32,845 nt of DNA from the IMG/VR virus record IMGVR_UViG_3300009379_000033, positions 1-32,845 of that record; one strand, written 5' to 3'. Shown piece by piece: positions 1 through 18,865 of the stretch; the first letter of the stretch is position 1, and every line of letters begins with the position of its first letter. The notes below the pieces were generated by a model. The model saw only the letters and a program-made list of their open reading frames with translations. It was not told where the DNA came from and ran no database searches. The stretch comes from a virus. The position numbers were made by a program, and so were the translations under genes.

Positions 1-1173
1 TTAACCCCTTTTTCGTTTCTTTTTGGACATTGTGTCTGAAACTGTGTCTGTGATTGTGTCTGACCTGTGCTCAGACTGCCTTTCCAGGTACGCCTCCTGC
101 TGCATTGCAGCCCTCCTTAGGTCTTCATCGTTGACAATATTGTACCGCTCGAAGACCGACCGCGTCTTATGCCCCGAGACCTTCATGGCGATCCCCTCTG
201 GAACCCCGGAGCGCACCATGTTGCGGATGGATGTCCGCCTCAGGTCGTGAAAGAGCCGGTCCACCCCGGCCTTCCTGCAGGCCGTACCCCACGCCCTGTC
301 GAACCGATAGTTCCGGTCCGTTCCCTTCTTGTTCACAAACACATAGGGGCAAAAGCTCCGGACCTGCTTCCGCCTCTCCCACAGCTCATCAAAAAGGGCC
401 CTCAGCTCCGAATCAAAATAGATGGTCCGGGCCTCCTCTCCCTTGGTGATGTCCGCCTCGACCCGGGCGCATCCATTGAACCGGTCCACCTGCGCCCAGG
501 GCAGCGTGAGAATCTCCGTCACCCGCCAACCGGTATGGTACCCAAAGGTGGCAATGGGCTTCAGGTGATTTGGCAGGTGCTTCCAGAGGCGCTCAAACTC
601 ATCATGCTCAAAGAACCCCTTTCGGGTGTTGTTCTCCTTCAGCATCTGGATCTCAGGCACACGATCCACCAGGGGCGGTGTGTATGATGCCCCGATGCGC
701 ATCATCCGTTTCAGGGCAGACAGCTCTCGATTGATGGTGGCGTTGGCCGCGCCCTTTTCAAGCTTTCCGCTTCCGCAGAACGGACAGGAGCCAGCATAGG
801 GAAAACGCTTTCCGCAATCTGTGCAGCCCCACCGCATCCGACCATCGATGTATTCATCGATGAGGACAGTCGTGATCTGGCTGGCCTGCTTCCCCTGAAA
901 AAAAGCGGCAAGCCGCTTCACACTGATCTCCGCCCGTGTCAGGGATTTCTTCTTGTTGATTCGGTAATCCCTCAAAAGCAGCTCACAGAGCTTCTCAAAA
1001 GTCACCGCATCACCGGCAGGCGTCAATGCTTTCGGCTGAATCCCGGCCTCAGCCATCTTCATAATCTCCCGGGCCTCCATCTTCTTCTTTTTGCCCGTGC
1101 TCTTTCGGATGGGCTCTCCGTTAACGTAGTATTGCATCCACCACGTCTTTCCACGCAGATATAACATTCCCAT
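1..1173 (-). CDS. int: Tyrosine recombinase (phage integrase) with inserted zinc ribbon
   Basis: Site-specific recombinase that would integrate and excise the phage DNA. The 390-residue protein has an N-terminal Arm-type domain (about 1-50), a core-binding SAM-like domain (about 55-165) and a C-terminal catalytic domain. The catalytic set is visible: R217 in HTGWRVTEI, K244, H309-xx-R312 in FHDLRRTS, H335 in SGHKTRS and nucleophile Y344 in FERYNI. An unusual feature is a C4 zinc ribbon (C117, C120, C130, C133) inserted between core-binding helices, just before the usual GAANATINREL helix. The C-terminus is a Thr/Ser/Asp-rich stretch followed by a basic KKKRKRG tail. The start is ATG at 1173. 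The gene ends at the window edge, so the attachment site is probably outside the window. The family is certain; the role of the zinc ribbon is unknown. Confidence 0.95.
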   Translation of the reverse strand: MGMLYLRGKTWWMQYYVNGEPIRKSTGKKKKMEAREIMKMAEAGIQPKALTPAGDAVTFEKLCELLLRDYRINKKKSLTRAEISVKRLAAFFQGKQASQITTVLIDEYIDGRMRWGCTDCGKRFPYAGSCPFCGSGKLEKGAANATINRELSALKRMMRIGASYTPPLVDRVPEIQMLKENNTRKGFFEHDEFERLWKHLPNHLKPIATFGYHTGWRVTEILTLPWAQVDRFNGCARVEADITKGEEARTIYFDSELRALFDELWERRKQVRSFCPYVFVNKKGTDRNYRFDRAWGTACRKAGVDRLFHDLRRTSIRNMVRSGVPEGIAMKVSGHKTRSVFERYNIVNDEDLRRAAMQQEAYLERQSEHRSDTITDTVSDTMSKKKRKRG

Positions 1174-1281
1174 ATCAGATCAACCTCCACATTGTGTGTG
1201 ACGGGCACAACAGGTTGTGATCCAGGAGAATTAAGCCACAGAACACCGTCGCACACAAACTAAAATGGAATGTAAAAAAAA

Positions 1282-1458
1282 TCATACGCCCTGCTTCATC
1301 TCCTGGATAAGCTTTTCTATGTCCTGCCGATCAAACATATGCTTGTTCCCGAATCCACAGTTCTTCAGCTTTCCCTGCCATTTCTTTGTCCGCCAGAACC
1401 AGGTGGAAGCGCCAAATTCCGCAACAATCTGCTTGTAAGTCATAAGTCGTCCGGACAT
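1282..1458 (-). CDS. Small AlpA/excisionase-like DNA-binding protein
   Basis: A 58-residue protein beginning MSGRLMTYKQIVAEFG. The start is ATG at 1458 because AGAGGAGA sits just upstream; a longer TTG start at 1476 would overlap the parB stop but would place that ribosome binding site inside the gene. The pattern of a first helix (TYKQIVAEFG), a short wing containing FGNKHMFDRQD and a final helix (IEKLIQEMKQ) fits MerR/AlpA-type winged helix proteins, which include phage excisionases. It is the last gene before the integrase in the same direction, the expected place for a recombination directionality factor. Excisionase function is inferred from size and position only. Confidence 0.6.
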   Translation of the reverse strand: MSGRLMTYKQIVAEFGASTWFWRTKKWQGKLKNCGFGNKHMFDRQDIEKLIQEMKQGV

Positions 1459-1472
1459 CGTGTTCTCTCCTC

Positions 1473-2552
1473 TCAATTCTTTACGCTCATGGGATCTTGG
1501 AGGACCTCAGCCATCGCTTCATTCATCGCTTTCTTGGTTTTGTGCCGACTCACCAGTTTCCACCCGCCATTATTGGTCAGCTCCTTTATTGCCTTGGCAT
1601 ACTCCTGCGTACGGAAGATACGGAAACCCGCCCGGAGTAGCTTGACGCTGCAAGCGCCGCTCAAATTGAGAGGCTCTTCAGGATAATTCCGCATCAACGA
1701 AGGAAAGGTGGAATCAATTGTGGCCCGAAGTTTTTCCAGTGCTTCATTAAATGCTGCACACTCTTCAGTGGGCTTCATCTCTGTTCTGAATTCCGCGTGA
1801 GATGCCTCTCTCAACCTCAGGGACTCTTCGACAGCATTCAGGCTTTCGGCATCTTTAGCCAATTTTAAAATTCTGTGGCTCATCCACTTCTTCGATGGAT
1901 CTTTTTTCTTCGGGGCCCTCACCTCTTTCCGCCCCATTGCCAGGTTGGCCGCCTCTTCCATCGCCTCCGGAGTCTCCATCCGGGCAATCTTAATCAGTTT
2001 CCTTTTGGGAATGTCTACGCGTAGACATTCCTCTCTGATCGGTGCCGGCAGTCTGTTCAGGCTCAGGGTTTCGGTGATGTTGTTTCGGGACTTGCCCACA
2101 ACCCGGGCCAGCTCCTGGTGGGTGTATCCGAACTCCTTTTGCATTCGGGCGTAGGCTGCGGCCTCTTCCAGGGGAGTGAGATCCGAGCGGAGCATGTTTC
2201 CGATCAGGGCAATTTCAGCCGGCTTGCCTGCGGTGACGTAACAGGGCACCGTTTTCTTGCAAACAAGCATGGCCGCTCGCCATCGCCTCTCGCCGTCTCC
2301 GATGAAATACTCTCCGTTCTCAATGAAGATGCATAAGGGAAGAAGGATGCCATGGGCATAGATCGAATCCCCCAGGACGGCCAGCTCCTCCTGGTTGAAA
2401 ACCTGCCGGGGCTGGTACGGGTTCGGCTTCAGGGACTCCACCGGCACGTTGAGAAAGGTGCCCTGGGGCAGGTCTTGATGAGATTCGGATTCGGACTCCC
2501 CGCCAAACCCGGCGGCGATCTTCACTTTTTTATCGACTCCAAGTTTTTTCAT
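1473..2552 (-). CDS. parB: ParB-family partition protein
   Basis: Centromere-binding protein of a ParABS partition system, 359 residues. The start is ATG at 2552, overlapping the parA stop as ATGA, a coupled arrangement; an upstream in-frame extension lies inside parA and is not used. Residues 30-110 form the ParB/Srx CTPase domain: VESLKPNPYQPRQVF, then GDGERRWRAA, matching the GERRxRA CTP-binding motif, then a NMLRSDLTPLEEA segment like the ENxxRxDLnPiEeA motif. An HTH follows (YTHQELARVVGKSRNNITETL). The C-terminal half is charged and helical, probably for dimerisation, and does not match a family I recognise. The coding sequence itself contains one copy of the palindrome TGTCTACGCGTAGACA (2012-2027), a candidate ParB target. 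The family is secure. Confidence 0.92.
   Translation of the reverse strand: MKKLGVDKKVKIAAGFGGESESESHQDLPQGTFLNVPVESLKPNPYQPRQVFNQEELAVLGDSIYAHGILLPLCIFIENGEYFIGDGERRWRAAMLVCKKTVPCYVTAGKPAEIALIGNMLRSDLTPLEEAAAYARMQKEFGYTHQELARVVGKSRNNITETLSLNRLPAPIREECLRVDIPKRKLIKIARMETPEAMEEAANLAMGRKEVRAPKKKDPSKKWMSHRILKLAKDAESLNAVEESLRLREASHAEFRTEMKPTEECAAFNEALEKLRATIDSTFPSLMRNYPEEPLNLSGACSVKLLRAGFRIFRTQEYAKAIKELTNNGGWKLVSRHKTKKAMNEAMAEVLQDPMSVKN
2008..2031. repeat. Palindrome copy 1 (inside parB), candidate parS site
   Basis: A perfect 24-bp palindrome centred on TGTCTACGCGTAGACA (2012-2027), with GGAA to the left and TTCC to the right. It is translated as ECLRVDIP within parB. The same 16-mer occurs at 24842-24857, 29594-29609 and 30174-30189. 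A 16-bp dyad next to or within parB is the typical form and place of a parS site; the assignment is an inference. Confidence 0.6.
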
Positions 2553-3295
2553 AAGGCCAGATACTCTTCGGTCAGGTTCCTGTAATCCTCGGCCCCGATT
2601 CCCCTGGGGGCGAATTGGAAAATGCTTTTTTGCTCGATGGCGGCCTGGCGAAGGGCTTCGTTCTTCCGGATCTTGGTGTCCAGGAGGATCTCTTCGTATT
2701 GCGCCAGCTGCTCCTCGGCCCATTCGTTGGTGCGGGTGGTTCGGCGTTCGTACATGGTGACAAACAGGCGGACCGTTTTCCCGTTCAGGCCGACCTCGGC
2801 GATCTTGTTATGGATGTTGGCGATCCCCCCAATGGAAAAACTCCCGTAGTCGCAGGGGATCAACACATGGGTCGCCGCCACCAGGGCGTTGACCGTTAAC
2901 AGGCCAAGGGAAGGGGAGCAGTCCAGAATCACATGGTCATAGGTAAGACCCTGAAGGGCTTTTGCCAGGCGCGTCTCCGAAAAGAGCTCCGGGATCAGGA
3001 AGTCCTCGGCTCGTTTCAAGGTCTCGTCCGCCGGGATGAGATCAATGGCCCCTTTGCTGACGATCACGTCTTTGACGATGGCATCGGTGGTAGCGGCATG
3101 CCGGTGCAGGACGTGGTTGATGAGGTGCTTGCACCCGGGAGCAAAGACTCCGGTGGCGCTGGTGAGGTTCGCCTGGGGGTCGAGGTCGATGAGAAGAACC
3201 CGCTCCCCCTTTTGTGCGAGCCCGGCGGCCAGATTGATGGAGGTGGTGGTTTTGCCCACGCCTCCTTTTTGGTTTGCGATGCAGGTGATGTTCAT
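2549..3295 (-). CDS. parA: ParA-family partition ATPase
   Basis: Walker-type ATPase that moves or anchors replicons together with ParB; 248 residues. The deviant Walker A motif KGGVGKTT is at residues 10-17, Walker A' is DLDPQAN, and Walker B is [11 protein letters not shown]. There is no N-terminal HTH extension, so it is the short (type Ib or chromosomal-like) class. AAGGAG lies nine bases before the ATG at 3295. It is followed by parB with a 4-bp overlap. Together with parB and the dispersed palindromes this suggests the phage is, or descends from, a replicon maintained as a plasmid, even though an integrase is present. Confidence 0.95.
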
Positions 3296-5620: not shown

Positions 5621-5797
5621 CTACAGCGCCTTGACCCGGGTCAGCTCCACGGGAAAGGGGAAGCCCACAAGCCACACCATGCTGTTGCCCTTGCGAGAGA
5701 CAAAGGCGTCCGATCGGGTGAGGGTGGCCGTCCTCCTGCCCACGGCAACTGACGATTCGTTTGCTGCTCTTTCCAACATTGGGAAAAAGCTCCACAT
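5621..5797 (-). CDS. Doubtful 58-residue ORF, possibly a gene remnant
   Basis: Minus-strand reading from ATG 5797, ending ...VELTRVKAL. Codons in its second half have mostly G or C in the third position and encode a sensible hydrophobic segment (MVWLVGFPFPVELTR), as in real genes here. The ribosome binding site is poor (AGGA 12 bases upstream) and the first part reads better in another frame, which suggests a frameshifted remnant. A plus-strand reading ending DDLKEKLREIAYTISPNG covers the same DNA. It lies 79 bp downstream of the terminase-like gene in the same direction. Confidence 0.22.
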   Translation of the reverse strand: MWSFFPMLERAANESSVAVGRRTATLTRSDAFVSRKGNSMVWLVGFPFPVELTRVKAL

Positions 5798-5876
5798 GGA
5801 TGTCGATGATCCTAAAGACGACCTGAAAGAAAAATTGAGAGAGATCGCCTACACCATCAGCCCCAACGGATAAGAG

Positions 5877-6737
5877 TCAATTCCTCGCCCGGAGGCCGAG
5901 GCCTCCGGTGATCCCCTTCATCGTCTCGTTCAGAGAGATCAGCTGCTCTAAAATCCTCTCTTCTGTGGTTATTTCCACAGGCAGGGGGCCGCCCTGTTCT
6001 TCCTGCTTTGCCAGGAAACGGATACTGGGCCCCCAGGAGGCGTCCGCGCAGGCGGCCGCACACACCTCGCACTCCAGAAAATGGCTCGGGCAGGCAAAGG
6101 GACGCTGCCAGCGCGCTTTCTTTCGTTTTTCATCTCGCATCTTCTCTTCAGCCATAAACTGCATCCCATACTTCAGGTCGGTATCGGCATGCAGGAAGAA
6201 CCTTTGGGCGTCGGCCTTGCGGCCCGTTTCAGGGGCTGCATCCCGTCGGGTAAGGCGATAGTGAAGGAGATCCTGAAGCTGTGGCCTGTCCAGGCAATAT
6301 ACGTCAGACCCGAAAGGGGTTCCCTTCACCTGGACCTTTTGGAACTGGGTCTTTTCCCTTGGCAAGACCATAAAAACCGTTTCACCGCCGTTCTCCCGCA
6401 GCCACTCTTCTGCCTCGTTGGCCGTTTCATGATAGGGCCGAAGGGCTGTCCTGAAAATCGGCATCGTTTTCTCTGAGCCGTCCACCAAAAAATGGGTCCT
6501 GGAGACCAAGTCTTCTACCTCTTCCCACCTGGTTAAAACGCCATGTTTGATAAGCCAACTGGTGAGATCTTTGGCCCACGCCCGCACCACAAAATAGAAT
6601 ACCCCCTCTAAAACCACGATGCCGCAAGTCAAAGCGATGGCCTCTTTGGGGACAAGCCCTTCGGGTAAATCGGTCTTATGAGCGTCCAGGAACGCCTTGG
6701 CCTTCTTTTTCAATGCATCCAACGATCTTTTCTCCAT
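5877..6737 (-). CDS. Standalone terminase nuclease-domain homologue with altered active site
   Basis: A 286-residue protein homologous to the C-terminal nuclease half of this phage's own large terminase subunit (16916-18865, from about residue 376). Shared blocks include ALTCGI, YFVVRAW, KDLTSWLI, FQKVQVK, LQDLLHYRLTR, ETDLKY-like DTDLKYGMQF and CADASWGPSIRFLAK. It has no ATPase domain. All three acidic positions I identify in the terminase nuclease are changed: D389 to V41, D448 to R100, D588 to E222. After the homologous part it carries its own 40-residue helical tail (ITTEERILEQLISLNETMKG). The start is ATG 6737, with AAGGAG nine bases upstream; longer starts lack such a site. The gene is intact, so it looks maintained rather than decaying. 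Likely roles are binding a terminase, cos DNA or procapsid without cutting; this is inference. Confidence 0.85.
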   Translation of the reverse strand: MEKRSLDALKKKAKAFLDAHKTDLPEGLVPKEAIALTCGIVVLEGVFYFVVRAWAKDLTSWLIKHGVLTRWEEVEDLVSRTHFLVDGSEKTMPIFRTALRPYHETANEAEEWLRENGGETVFMVLPREKTQFQKVQVKGTPFGSDVYCLDRPQLQDLLHYRLTRRDAAPETGRKADAQRFFLHADTDLKYGMQFMAEEKMRDEKRKKARWQRPFACPSHFLECEVCAAACADASWGPSIRFLAKQEEQGGPLPVEITTEERILEQLISLNETMKGITGGLGLRARN

Positions 6738-6841
6738 GATTCCTACTCCTTCTTTTATGTAGATAGATTTTAGGTCCTTAATTATTCTGGTATCGCTTCG
6801 AGCTTTTAAAGGGGCATGCATTGCCTCCGTATGTGTTCCAC

Positions 6842-6953: not shown

Positions 6954-7118
6954 ATGGATAAGTTGGAAAAGACCACACACATTCACATCCGGTGTACCCG
7001 GGACCTGAAGGAGCTGCTAACCAAAATCGCTGAAGAGCAGGAGCGCACCCTCTCCAGGCAGGTGGTCTATTTCCTCAAAAAATCCATCAAGCAGTATCAA
7101 GACAGTGGGTCAGGTTGA
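6954..7118 (+). CDS. Small Arc-type ribbon-helix-helix protein
   Basis: A 54-residue protein starting MDKLEKTTHIHIRCTRDLKE at ATG 6954, with AAGGGAGA just upstream. The pattern of a short strand (IHIRC), a helix (DLKELLTKIAEEQE), a turn (RTLS) and a second helix (RQVVYFLKKSIKQY) is that of an Arc/MetJ/CopG DNA-binding dimer. It is divergent from the terminase-like gene and convergent, by 22 bp of overlap, with the small HTH gene at 7097-7315. It probably represses from the shared region 6738-6953. The target is inferred. Confidence 0.75.
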   Translation: MDKLEKTTHIHIRCTRDLKELLTKIAEEQERTLSRQVVYFLKKSIKQYQDSGSG

Positions 7119-7315
7119 GCCGCTGCTTTTTTTATGGCTGCCTTGATCTCTTCGGGGGTTCCTTCCATCCAAACGTCGATCGACGTGCCAGTGACCTTAG
7201 CAATTTTTTTCGCATTTTGCCATGATGGTCGTTTCTTGCCTGCGAAAATTTCACAGACAAAACTTGCACTAAGCCCCGTCTTCACAACGATGTAGTTTTG
7301 GTTTAGCTTTTTCAT
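7097..7315 (-). CDS. Small XRE/Cro-type HTH regulator
   Basis: A 72-residue protein, MKKLNQNYIVVKTGLSASFV at the N-terminus. The HTH is visible as YIVVKTGLSASFVCEIFAGKKRPSWQ within residues 8-33, followed by AKKIAKVTGTSIDVWMEG, the usual fourth and fifth helices of XRE proteins. It is transcribed divergently from the larger HTH gene at 7423. No ribosome binding site is seen, and its promoter -10 box lies only 6 bases from the ATG, so the message is probably leaderless, as for lambda cI from PRM. It may act as the Cro or the CI of this phage; which one cannot be told from sequence alone. Confidence 0.8.
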   Translation of the reverse strand: MKKLNQNYIVVKTGLSASFVCEIFAGKKRPSWQNAKKIAKVTGTSIDVWMEGTPEEIKAAIKKAAAQPDPLS

Positions 7316-7422: not shown

Positions 7423-7935
7423 ATGACGATTGACCCCACATACGAGTCTTTTTTTAAAGCGCTTTGCACTGTGATTGAGAGGGATTGGCGTGGCCGAAAA
7501 GGGGTTTTGGCCCAAGAAGCTGATATCTCTGGAGGGTATTTAAGTGATATCCTTAGCAGAAAGCGTAAAGCGTCTTTTAAAAAGCAAAGCTCCCTGGCTA
7601 TAGCCGCCGGATATACATACGAAGATTTTATTGATTTAGGCCAAAAGCTGCTGGCCGAAGAAGATCCAGGCAGCCTTAAAAAAAGCAGCGACACCAACCT
7701 GACAAAAGAAGTACCCAGTAAAGAAGTGAAGGTTGGCAAAAAAATGGAAGTTGAAGCACTGAAGGACCTTCTCCAGCATTACAAGGTGATGCTGGAGGCG
7801 AACACAGCGGAGCTTAGCGCCTTACGCGAAGAGATTGGTTACCTGAGAGAGCGAAACCGCGAGCTGGAAGCGGCAAAGCGGGAGGCGGAGACCCAAGACA
7901 AACCGTCAAAGCCTGAAAAAAAAACGGCCGTGTGA
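7423..7935 (+). CDS. HTH regulator with C-terminal coiled coil
   Basis: A 170-residue protein. Residues 15-65 form an XRE-like HTH (GVLAQEADISGGYLSDILS then KKQSSLAIAAGYTYEDFI). A lysine/serine-rich linker follows, then a long heptad-bearing helix (about 105-155, from EVEALKDLLQHYKVML to IGYLRERNRELEAAK) that should form a coiled-coil dimer. The layout resembles phage repressors of the short, protease-less type, where the C-terminus only oligomerises; there is no LexA-like peptidase domain. No strong ribosome binding site is seen. It is divergent from the small HTH gene. Likely the main repressor or the lytic antagonist. Confidence 0.78.
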   Translation: MTIDPTYESFFKALCTVIERDWRGRKGVLAQEADISGGYLSDILSRKRKASFKKQSSLAIAAGYTYEDFIDLGQKLLAEEDPGSLKKSSDTNLTKEVPSKEVKVGKKMEVEALKDLLQHYKVMLEANTAELSALREEIGYLRERNRELEAAKREAETQDKPSKPEKKTAV

Positions 7936-16364: not shown

Positions 16365-16919
16365 ATGACGGACACACTTGCCAACCCCAAGACCATCACG
16401 GCCTACCTGAAGGAGGCCGGGTACAAGGTCAGTCAGTCCACGGTCTACAAGCACCGGGACGAGGGCCGGATCCCGATGCAGAAAGACGGGGCGTACCTGG
16501 TGAAGGACGTGGACCGCTATGCGTCCATGCACCTGAAGCGCCTCGACGGCGAAGCCTTCAATGAAGACATGGAGGCGGTCCAACGGAAGAAGCTCACGGC
16601 GGAAGCCAGGAAAGCGGACGCCCAGGCGGATCACTGGGAGCTTAAAACCCTGGTGGACTCCGGCCAGTACATCGACAGGGGCCTCTTCAACGGAGACCTG
16701 GCGGCACGGGCGGCGATCTTTCGGAATGACCTGGCAACGTTTTTCAGGACCAACGCAGGGGAGATGATCCGGCTTGTGAAGGGAGAGGCGGAGATGGGGC
16801 CCGACCTCATTGATTTTTGGCTGGAGAGACTGGAGGCCGCCATAGGGCGGTATGCGGAGCCGAAAAAATGGCCGGTGAAGGCCGTGAGTACGATGGCATC
16901 AGAGGAGATGGAAGAATGA
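16365..16919 (+). CDS. Terminase small subunit (Nu1-like)
   Basis: A 184-residue DNA-recognition subunit of the packaging motor. The N-terminus is a winged helix (ITAYLKEAGYKVSQSTVYKH, then EGRIPMQKDGAYLVKDVDRY), followed by a long charged helix (VQRKKLTAEARKADAQAD) and a C-terminal domain (NDLATFFRTNAGEMIRLVKG) that should bind the large subunit. It overlaps the large subunit gene by ATGA. The arrangement is that of lambda Nu1-A and related GpA-type terminases, suggesting cos packaging. Confidence 0.88.
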   Translation: MTDTLANPKTITAYLKEAGYKVSQSTVYKHRDEGRIPMQKDGAYLVKDVDRYASMHLKRLDGEAFNEDMEAVQRKKLTAEARKADAQADHWELKTLVDSGQYIDRGLFNGDLAARAAIFRNDLATFFRTNAGEMIRLVKGEAEMGPDLIDFWLERLEAAIGRYAEPKKWPVKAVSTMASEEMEE

Positions 16920-18865
16920 TTAGTGTTGATGATGGAAACCCTCAATATGTCGTCTTTACAGAAGCGGAGCGCCGTATCTTCAAGCCCAAGGAGAAAATAA
17001 CGGTCTCCCAGTGGGCCGAGCGTCACCGGTGGGTCGCCAAAGGCCCGGCGCAGGGGCCCTGGTCAAACGGCCTGACACCCTACCTGGTGGGGCCCATGGA
17101 CGCCTGGAACCTGCCCTGGGTGCAGAAAATCCTCCTCTGTTTCGCACCCCAGACGGGAAAAACCCAGGTGGCCATCAACTGCATGTGCTATGCGGTGGAC
17201 CAGGACCCCGGCCCGGGCATGTACGTGATGCCCGATGAAAAGGTGGTGAAGCGCATCAGCAGGCGACAGATCATCCCAGCCTTTAAGTTGTCTCCCAGAA
17301 TTGCGGAGCTTCTAAGCAAAAAAGCCGATGACGTGTCCACCCTTGCCATCAACTTCACCCACGGCATGGATATAATGATGGCCTGGGCCTCCTCGCCTGC
17401 GGTGATGGCCTCGGAGTCTGTCCGGTATCTCTTCTTTGACGAGCCGGGCAAGTACCCCGAGTTCTCCGGCAAAGAAGCGGACCCCTTCAGCCTGGGAGAG
17501 ATGAGGACCAACGCCTACCCCTTTACTAAGAAGATCCTCTACTTCTCCACCCCGAAGGAAGATGGGGACGCCTTTTCCCGGCTGCTGGAAGAGGAGGTGG
17601 AGGTTATGTACCACTATGAGGTTCCGTGCCCCATCGGTGGGTGTGGGGCCTTCCAGAAGATGGAATTTCCCTCCATCCACTGGCCAAAAGGCTCCCAGGC
17701 GGACCACAGAACCGTGGTCAGGAAAAAATCCGCCCGGTACACCTGCACCAAGTGTGGCATGGATTGGGACGATATCGACCGGAATCGGGCCGTGAAACTC
17801 GGGAAATGGGTTCCTGAGAAGGAGATCAAGAGGCCGGTTGCCGTGGGGTTCCACCTCCCCTCCTGGTACTCTCCTTTTGTAAGCCTCTCCGACGTGGCGG
17901 CGGCGTTTCTTAAAGGGCTCCAGGATCCGGCCAAGATGATGGCCTTTGACACCCAGCATAAGTCCGTGCCCTACAAACCGGTGATGACCACCACGGATGA
18001 AGGCAACCTCTTGAAGCACAAAACCGAAATCCCGCCGGGGATCGTGCCCAAGGCTGCCGTGGCCCTCACTTGTGGCATCGACATGCAGAAGAGCAATTTT
18101 TATTTTGTGGTCAGGGCCTGGGACAAGGACCTCACAAGCTGGCTGATCCAGTACGGGACCCTCTCCACCTGGGATGATGTAAAGAACCAAGTATTCAATA
18201 CCCGGTACCCGGCCCAGGATTCCCAGGAGACCATGGGGATCTTCCGGGCGGCGCTGGATACCGGCGGCGGCGTGAACACCGATGACGACTGGACCAGGAC
18301 GGAAGAGGCCTACGAATGGCTGAGGGACAACAGCCGGGGCGTGATCTTTGGAATCAAGGGCGCATCCAAGAGCCAGTTCCAAAAGGTCCAGGTGAAGGTC
18401 ATGGACAAGCTGCCCCGAAGCAACAAGCCCATTCCCGGTGGCCTGGAGCTGCGACTTCTCGACACACATCAATTAAAAGATCTTTTACACTATCGGCTCA
18501 CCCGAAAAGAGGCGAACCCGGACACGGGCAGGCCAGCGGACAATCAGCGGTTCTATCTCCACTCGGAAACCGACCTCAAATACGCAAAGCAGTTCCTGGC
18601 CGAAGAGAAGCGCCGGGATAAAAAAACAAAAAAGATCACCTGGAAGCAGATCGGAGGCCGGGACAACCACCTTCTGGACTGCGAAGTCTACGCCGCCGCC
18701 TGCGCCGACTCCTCATGGACGCCGAGTATTCGGTTTCTGGCTAAGGTCGAAGAGAAGAGGAAGGCAACTCCCAAGCCCAAAGTGGCCCCGAAGGTTGAAC
18801 CCCAGGACGTCCGACAAAGAATCACAGGAAATCGAAACCGGCCCAGCTGGTACAATAAGAGGTAA
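16916..18865 (+). CDS. Terminase large subunit, GpA family
   Basis: A 649-residue packaging ATPase and nuclease. The start is ATG 16916, inside the small subunit stop. ATPase domain: Walker A-like APQTGKTQVA near residue 78, Walker B YLFFDEPGKYP near 174, and motif III FSTPKEDGD. A zinc-binding segment has CPIGGCGA and TCTKCGMDW. The nuclease domain from about 376 has ALTCGIDMQ (D389), RAALDTGGG (D448) and LLDCEVYAAACA (D588), the three acidic residues expected to bind metal. It cuts concatemers and pumps DNA into the procapsid. A nuclease-only paralogue with these residues replaced is encoded at 5877-6737. Confidence 0.96.
   Translation: MISVDDGNPQYVVFTEAERRIFKPKEKITVSQWAERHRWVAKGPAQGPWSNGLTPYLVGPMDAWNLPWVQKILLCFAPQTGKTQVAINCMCYAVDQDPGPGMYVMPDEKVVKRISRRQIIPAFKLSPRIAELLSKKADDVSTLAINFTHGMDIMMAWASSPAVMASESVRYLFFDEPGKYPEFSGKEADPFSLGEMRTNAYPFTKKILYFSTPKEDGDAFSRLLEEEVEVMYHYEVPCPIGGCGAFQKMEFPSIHWPKGSQADHRTVVRKKSARYTCTKCGMDWDDIDRNRAVKLGKWVPEKEIKRPVAVGFHLPSWYSPFVSLSDVAAAFLKGLQDPAKMMAFDTQHKSVPYKPVMTTTDEGNLLKHKTEIPPGIVPKAAVALTCGIDMQKSNFYFVVRAWDKDLTSWLIQYGTLSTWDDVKNQVFNTRYPAQDSQETMGIFRAALDTGGGVNTDDDWTRTEEAYEWLRDNSRGVIFGIKGASKSQFQKVQVKVMDKLPRSNKPIPGGLELRLLDTHQLKDLLHYRLTRKEANPDTGRPADNQRFYLHSETDLKYAKQFLAEEKRRDKKTKKITWKQIGGRDNHLLDCEVYAAACADSSWTPSIRFLAKVEEKRKATPKPKVAPKVEPQDVRQRITGNRNRPSWYNKR

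Follow-up and report, generated by a model that had tools for sequence, protein, structure and literature searches.

A standalone paralogue of the large terminase nuclease domain, altered at its catalytic site, among the lysogeny and partition genes of a phage

The minus strand of the window (the whole 32,845-nucleotide stretch analysed, IMG/VR record IMGVR_UViG_3300009379_000033) carries at positions 5877..6737 a gene for a standalone paralogue, here called SA, of the nuclease domain of the phage's own large terminase (TerL). SA is a real and rare dead paralogue, probably maintained, located among lysogeny and partition genes. The 286-residue protein is a GpA-type terminase nuclease domain without the ATPase. 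It matches Pfam PF20454 (GpA_nuclease) with 57.5 bits against a curated cut-off of 22.5, and PHROG 15 (terminase large subunit) with an E value of 1.8e-15. No Pfam profile match to an ATPase (Walker) domain was obtained for SA, whereas the full-length GpA-type large terminase of the window (16817..18865, plus strand, 682 residues), which represents the source family of SA, matches both domains. By BLASTP the two proteins are 50% identical across TerL residues 401-672 (248 bits, E 6e-82), the start of SA being equivalent to TerL residue ~382. The C-terminal RPSWYxxR tail conserved in TerLs is missing from SA in the alignment. The reading frame is uninterrupted, and its ATG at 6737 is preceded by GAAGGAG. 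Re-examination of the sequence thus upheld the preliminary description as to coordinates, paralogy to the phage's own TerL, three acid substitutions, ribosome-binding site and direction of the gene. PADLOC models gave no match to SA or to the copy in prophage G051 described below at E values up to 1, nor did a PDB sequence search with TerL and SA return any relative within the same limit.

Loss of the catalytic site was assessed against an alignment with 30 TerLs, which has 17 strictly invariant positions in the nuclease domain. SA differs at six of them (D422V, D481R, G484H, G515P, K554Q and D621E). The acidic positions D422, D481 and D621 of TerL are all among the invariant ones and correspond to V41, R100 and E222 of SA, while the KG motif (K514, G515) is replaced by LP. 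With groups of positions set post hoc, all 5 active-site positions were altered in SA compared to 10 of 33 other TerL-conserved positions (p 0.006); the same test on the G051 copy, with groups likewise set post hoc, gave 4/5 versus 7/27 (p 0.037). In the predicted SA fold, V41 lies on the first strand, R100 on a later strand and E222 on the last core helix. These locations match those expected of an RNase-H triad, by comparison with the nuclease acids D302, D388 and D471 of HK97 TerL (PMC9410871). With both the triad and the KG motif gone, the earlier designation of the protein as nuclease-dead is borne out at the sequence level. SA also contains the motif C216-x2-H219-x3-C223-x2-C226 (residues 216-226; window 6060-6092, minus strand). 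C216 and C226, which adjoin the conserved H219 and C223, are not found in the window TerL, and judging from these residues the cluster could form a metal site. It is nevertheless hardly credible that SA is an active nuclease working through another metal site such as this one, given that substitutions affect the whole acidic triad and the KG motif, that the cluster is predicted to lie on or beside helix 219-231 of the RNase-H fold, and that it is incomplete in the G051 copy.

The AlphaFold model of SA (pLDDT 90.2, pTM 0.85) shows an intact RNase-H-like TerL nuclease fold. The alignment supplied for this prediction included TerLs, which favours a TerL-like fold, so that the model shows compatibility with the fold and not stability. 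When the model was compared to PDB structures, TerL nuclease domains ranked first, with Z scores of 10-13.3 (11.3 for HK97 TerL). An extra helical tail had been described beforehand; a helix is indeed predicted at residues 258-278, but with low confidence (pLDDT about 50-71 per block).

SA is the first gene of a leftward run whose last members are parA, parB and the integrase gene; the structural genes have the opposite orientation. Its leader with the ribosome-binding site (CTACATAAAAGAAGGAGTAGGAATC; 6738..6772, minus strand) is similar, in an alignment, to that of the next gene in the run, a likeness that points to capture of a terminase fragment downstream of a ribosome-binding site already in place. 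A sigma-70-like promoter match (TTTAAA-18-AATAAT; 6781..6810, minus strand) lies about 44 bp before the SA start and constitutes weak evidence. Across a 216-bp gap, a ribbon-helix-helix gene (6954..7118, plus strand) diverges from SA. Upstream of SA and on its strand stands the gene of a Cro-like HTH protein (7097..7315, minus strand) and, divergent from cro, that of a repressor-like HTH protein (7423..7935, plus strand; weak PHROG match). The Cro-like and repressor-like proteins are respectively 70% and 63-64% identical to their counterparts in the Desulfoluna spongiiphila and D. butyratoxydans prophages (L038 and L047). On the other side of SA, only a 3′ remnant of the next small gene is left (..TRSDAFVSRKGNSMVWLVGF..; 5621..5757, minus strand), its start being lost in the window. 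About 120 bp (5759..5876) replace this start and had no match in the related loci compared. Read on the plus strand, the same segment is the end of an open reading frame (..DDSFAALSNIGKKLHMDVDDPKDDLKEKLREIAYTISPNG).

Beyond what the preliminary description had noticed, the run continues with ParA (2549..3295, minus strand; Pfam AAA_31, 4.6e-48) and ParB (1473..2723, minus strand; ParB_N 5e-17, HTH_ParB 2e-15), and terminates with a tyrosine integrase (1..1173, minus strand; Phage_integrase 1.8e-20). The order ParA-ParB then integrase (window 1-3295) recurs in the D. butyratoxydans prophage (L047/L048) and in G051. The combination may reflect either a plasmid-like stage or the union of both modes of maintenance in one lysogeny module. 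The cargo located between the immunity genes and parAB varies among sibling prophages and is defence-like in some, where it comprises an Mrr_cat nuclease, an AAA NTPase, and a trypsin-like peptidase that matches PADLOC protease models. In a D. butyratoxydans prophage the peptidase gene stands beside that of a 319-residue protein, between repressor and parAB (L040:9744-11860). The corresponding place in a D. limicola prophage is occupied by a 691-residue AAA/STAND-like NTPase and an overlapping 267-residue partner (L043:11953-14776). PADLOC matches of this pair are very weak, and an undescribed defence pair is possible.

Full-length TerLs 78-90% identical to the window TerL in the nuclease region were found in prophages of three Desulfoluna species. 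Standalone copies were sought with P0001 and P0003 in 389 order-level genomes, with a P0001/P0003 profile in 395 phylum-level genomes, and in viral scans. Only three were found across these collections: that of the window, one in a D. spongiiphila prophage and one in G051. The D. spongiiphila copy (L038 17150-17500) occupies the corresponding site, with a leader and start near-identical to those of SA (33/34 bases). Its frame is broken by an internal deletion and a frameshift, and acids 1 and 3, which lie in the surviving parts, are still aspartate. The G051 copy (L080 2832-3398), from a distant desulfobacterial prophage, is an unbroken open reading frame of 188 residues that immediately follows a Cro-like gene and precedes ParA-ParB-integrase. 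It retains the first acid, has N and G in place of the other two, lacks the KG motif, and is devoid of a block of the nuclease core aligned to about residues 156-200 of SA. Frame-broken homologues, which had been named beforehand as a sign that the gene is a simple remnant, were therefore encountered in one case out of two. Finally, the D. butyratoxydans module (L047/L048) possesses cro, the ribbon-helix-helix gene, the repressor and the integrase, and no copy of SA. With three copies found, one of them broken, and one sibling module without it, the gene is rare and unstable.

Other searches were negative within their scope. The SA proteins used as single-sequence queries against viral and genome collections found nothing, and degenerate SA-specific DNA patterns gave no match. 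In 25 viral records searched whole, only full or contig-cut TerLs were present, and annotated phages and plasmids contained only distant TerLs. Among 20 loci of integrase relatives, none had a window-type ParA or a nuclease copy, and no more than weak ParB matches were seen, at a few of the loci. No precedent for a standalone or decoy terminase nuclease was found in the literature. Short GpA_nuclease frames of other genomes were considered as SA-like genes and rejected, as they are broken, truncated or contig-edge TerLs, or isolated chromosomal remnants. Most of the short TerL frames read keep recognisable catalytic motifs, while the window and G051 copies combine an unbroken frame with a dead site. 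At one locus (L164:5736-7698), terminase ATPase and nuclease are encoded in two overlapping frames (443 and 281 residues), owing either to a frameshift or to a split or recoded TerL.

A maximum-likelihood tree places the two intact copies within the Desulfoluna-type TerL clade (support 98/100), and the G051 phage's own TerL sits in another, well-supported clade. The G051 copy thus does not derive from the present terminase gene of its own phage. It may have travelled with the module, since G051 and the window share 47-51% identity in ParA, ParB and integrase. The data neither support a grouping of the window and G051 copies as a single lineage nor reject it (p-AU 0.19). Acids 1 and 3 are still present in the D. 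spongiiphila copy and acid 1 in the G051 copy, so that the losses in the window and G051 lineages were probably independent, at least in part. The SA branch is long, 0.81 compared to 0.01-0.17 for Desulfoluna-type TerLs.

Such a branch raises the question of decay. The main rival reading holds that TerL DNA was inserted accidentally, acquired a good ribosome-binding site by chance, has no present function and is being lost. The branch length is in keeping with this, as are the broken frame in D. spongiiphila, the absence of a copy from the D. butyratoxydans module despite its matching immunity genes, the truncation of the G051 copy and the decapitation of the small gene that adjoins SA in the window itself. 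However, SA contains no stop or frameshift in spite of about 50% amino-acid divergence. In neutral simulations run to the observed divergence, none of 500 runs was free of stops (mean 7.8 stops), and at one third of this divergence 8% stayed open. A codon model rejected ω = 1 on the SA branch (LRT 72.9), with a branch ω below 1; synonymous sites are saturated and the branch may include time spent as part of a terminase, before capture. For this last reason, the pair formed by the window and D. spongiiphila copies is a better test of constraint. Over 98 codons, it gave pS 0.72 and pN 0.30, a ratio of 0.42 that equals those of the neighbouring regulators (repressor 0.40, cro 0.38); terL gave 0.12. 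This ratio assumes a single shared capture, as the common leader suggests, and the pS value, higher than those of the neighbours, makes separate origins possible. A codon-position test confined to the TerL-invariant sites was uninformative and set aside, because the bias of invariant third positions is towards codons in which a change at that position is not silent.

Moreover, the high-confidence predicted fold argues against decay, as does the intact second copy at the corresponding position in a distant phage (G051). The other short TerL frames, broken or truncated yet mostly with recognisable catalytic motifs, show the reverse of what is seen in SA. Slow decay is possible but somewhat unlikely, though scarcely less probable than the reading preferred below. 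The initial view that SA is not a simple remnant is supported by the absence of stops, the branch ω, the pN/pS ratio, the predicted fold and the same-position copy.

As to function, our best guess, put forward tentatively, is that SA acts as a dominant-negative packaging interference protein expressed during lysogeny. The sequence supports a history in which a 3′ fragment of a Desulfoluna-type gpA gene was captured by a temperate phage, next to the ribosome-binding site with which the leftward lysogeny/partition run begins on the cro side. The fragment then persisted as a protein of its own, whose RNase-H-like terminase nuclease fold is intact, and lost its metal-binding acids and KG motif in two lineages, at least in part independently. 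SA would be produced during lysogeny, a state in which nuclease activity would do harm, and would hinder packaging by superinfecting or co-resident phages with gpA-type terminases, resulting in superinfection exclusion late in the lytic cycle. Interference is favoured by the cargo location, the lysogeny-side strand, the loss of a nuclease harmful in the lysogen and the foreign origin of the gene in G051. In lambda gpA, the N-terminus binds the small terminase subunit (TerS) and the C-terminal tail binds the portal. Since SA has neither the TerS-binding N-terminus nor the portal-binding tail, the best-known decoy routes are absent and the mechanism would have to be binding of cos DNA or co-assembly with TerL. 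SA may thus occupy cos DNA or join TerL assemblies as a dead subunit. A decoy directed against superinfecting phages, as originally envisaged, is plausible but unproven; it fits the lysogeny-side location and the foreign copy of G051. The other use envisaged was to keep the phage's own motor inactive; in G051 this is less likely, since copy and motor there belong to different TerL clades. The broader proposal of a dead TerL nuclease as an exclusion protein that poisons the packaging of competitors, transferable with the lysogeny module to phages with a different terminase, is rather unlikely as it stands.

Two further roles were weighed. SA could be a regulator of its own lysogeny, i.e. a DNA-binding protein that protects cos, restrains TerL cutting of the prophage or plasmid form, or regulates par/int. 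Its position as the first gene of the run ending in parA-parB-int, divergent from the ribbon-helix-helix gene, would suit such a role. The different clades of the G051 copy and its phage's TerL, together with the sibling module L047 without a copy, make it clearly unlikely. Alternatively, a dead TerL domain might shield the prophage by occupying Avs-type STAND receptors, so that its own TerL goes undetected during induction. Avs1-4 sense the large terminase or the portal (PMC12931631), and the SA model aligns to the terminase of the Avs3-terminase structure 8dgc (Z 10.0), as would any TerL nuclease domain. However, SA sits with lysogeny genes and not with the late genes where TerL is made, and most related phages have no SA, which renders a shield highly unlikely.

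If packaging interference by SA is true, it would represent exclusion at the packaging stage built from the large subunit of the motor itself, whereas the published blockers Rpp and Ppi act via the small subunit. It would also provide a natural dominant-negative tool for cos terminases of the gpA type, and would indicate that pieces of terminase can persist as dead paralogues. If only decay is involved, SA is a well-documented case of a gene fragment captured into a phage operon.

SA can be compared to several known systems. It resembles the nuclease domain of GpA-type TerLs (PF20454, PHROG 15; lambda gpA) in sequence family and predicted RNase-H-like fold, but it has no ATPase, catalytic acids, KG motif or C-terminal tail, and is encoded on the opposite strand among lysogeny genes. 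Chromosomal TerL pseudogene fragments (e.g. L165, L167 and L171) are, like SA, partial nucleases without the ATPase. These fragments are truncated or interrupted, mostly retain recognisable motifs and were not seen in a lysogeny run, whereas SA is unbroken and has lost the motifs. Rpp of E. coli PICIs and Ppi of SaPIs block packaging by binding TerS (PMC6739421). The likeness resides in the proposed outcome, blocking the packaging of another phage; they act on the small terminase while SA derives from the large one, a distinction drawn from their descriptions and not from sequence comparison. Finally, Tab of Pseudomonas aeruginosa phage JBD26 is encoded by a minus-strand prophage gene, is expressed in the lysogen and stops the assembly of competing phages (PMC10884400). 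SA likewise is a minus-strand prophage gene, and lysogen expression and the block of competitors, known for Tab, are proposed for SA. Tab, however, has 83 residues, its gene stands between terS and terL, and the step it blocks is tail assembly, whereas SA is a 286-residue, TerL-derived protein encoded with parAB and int.
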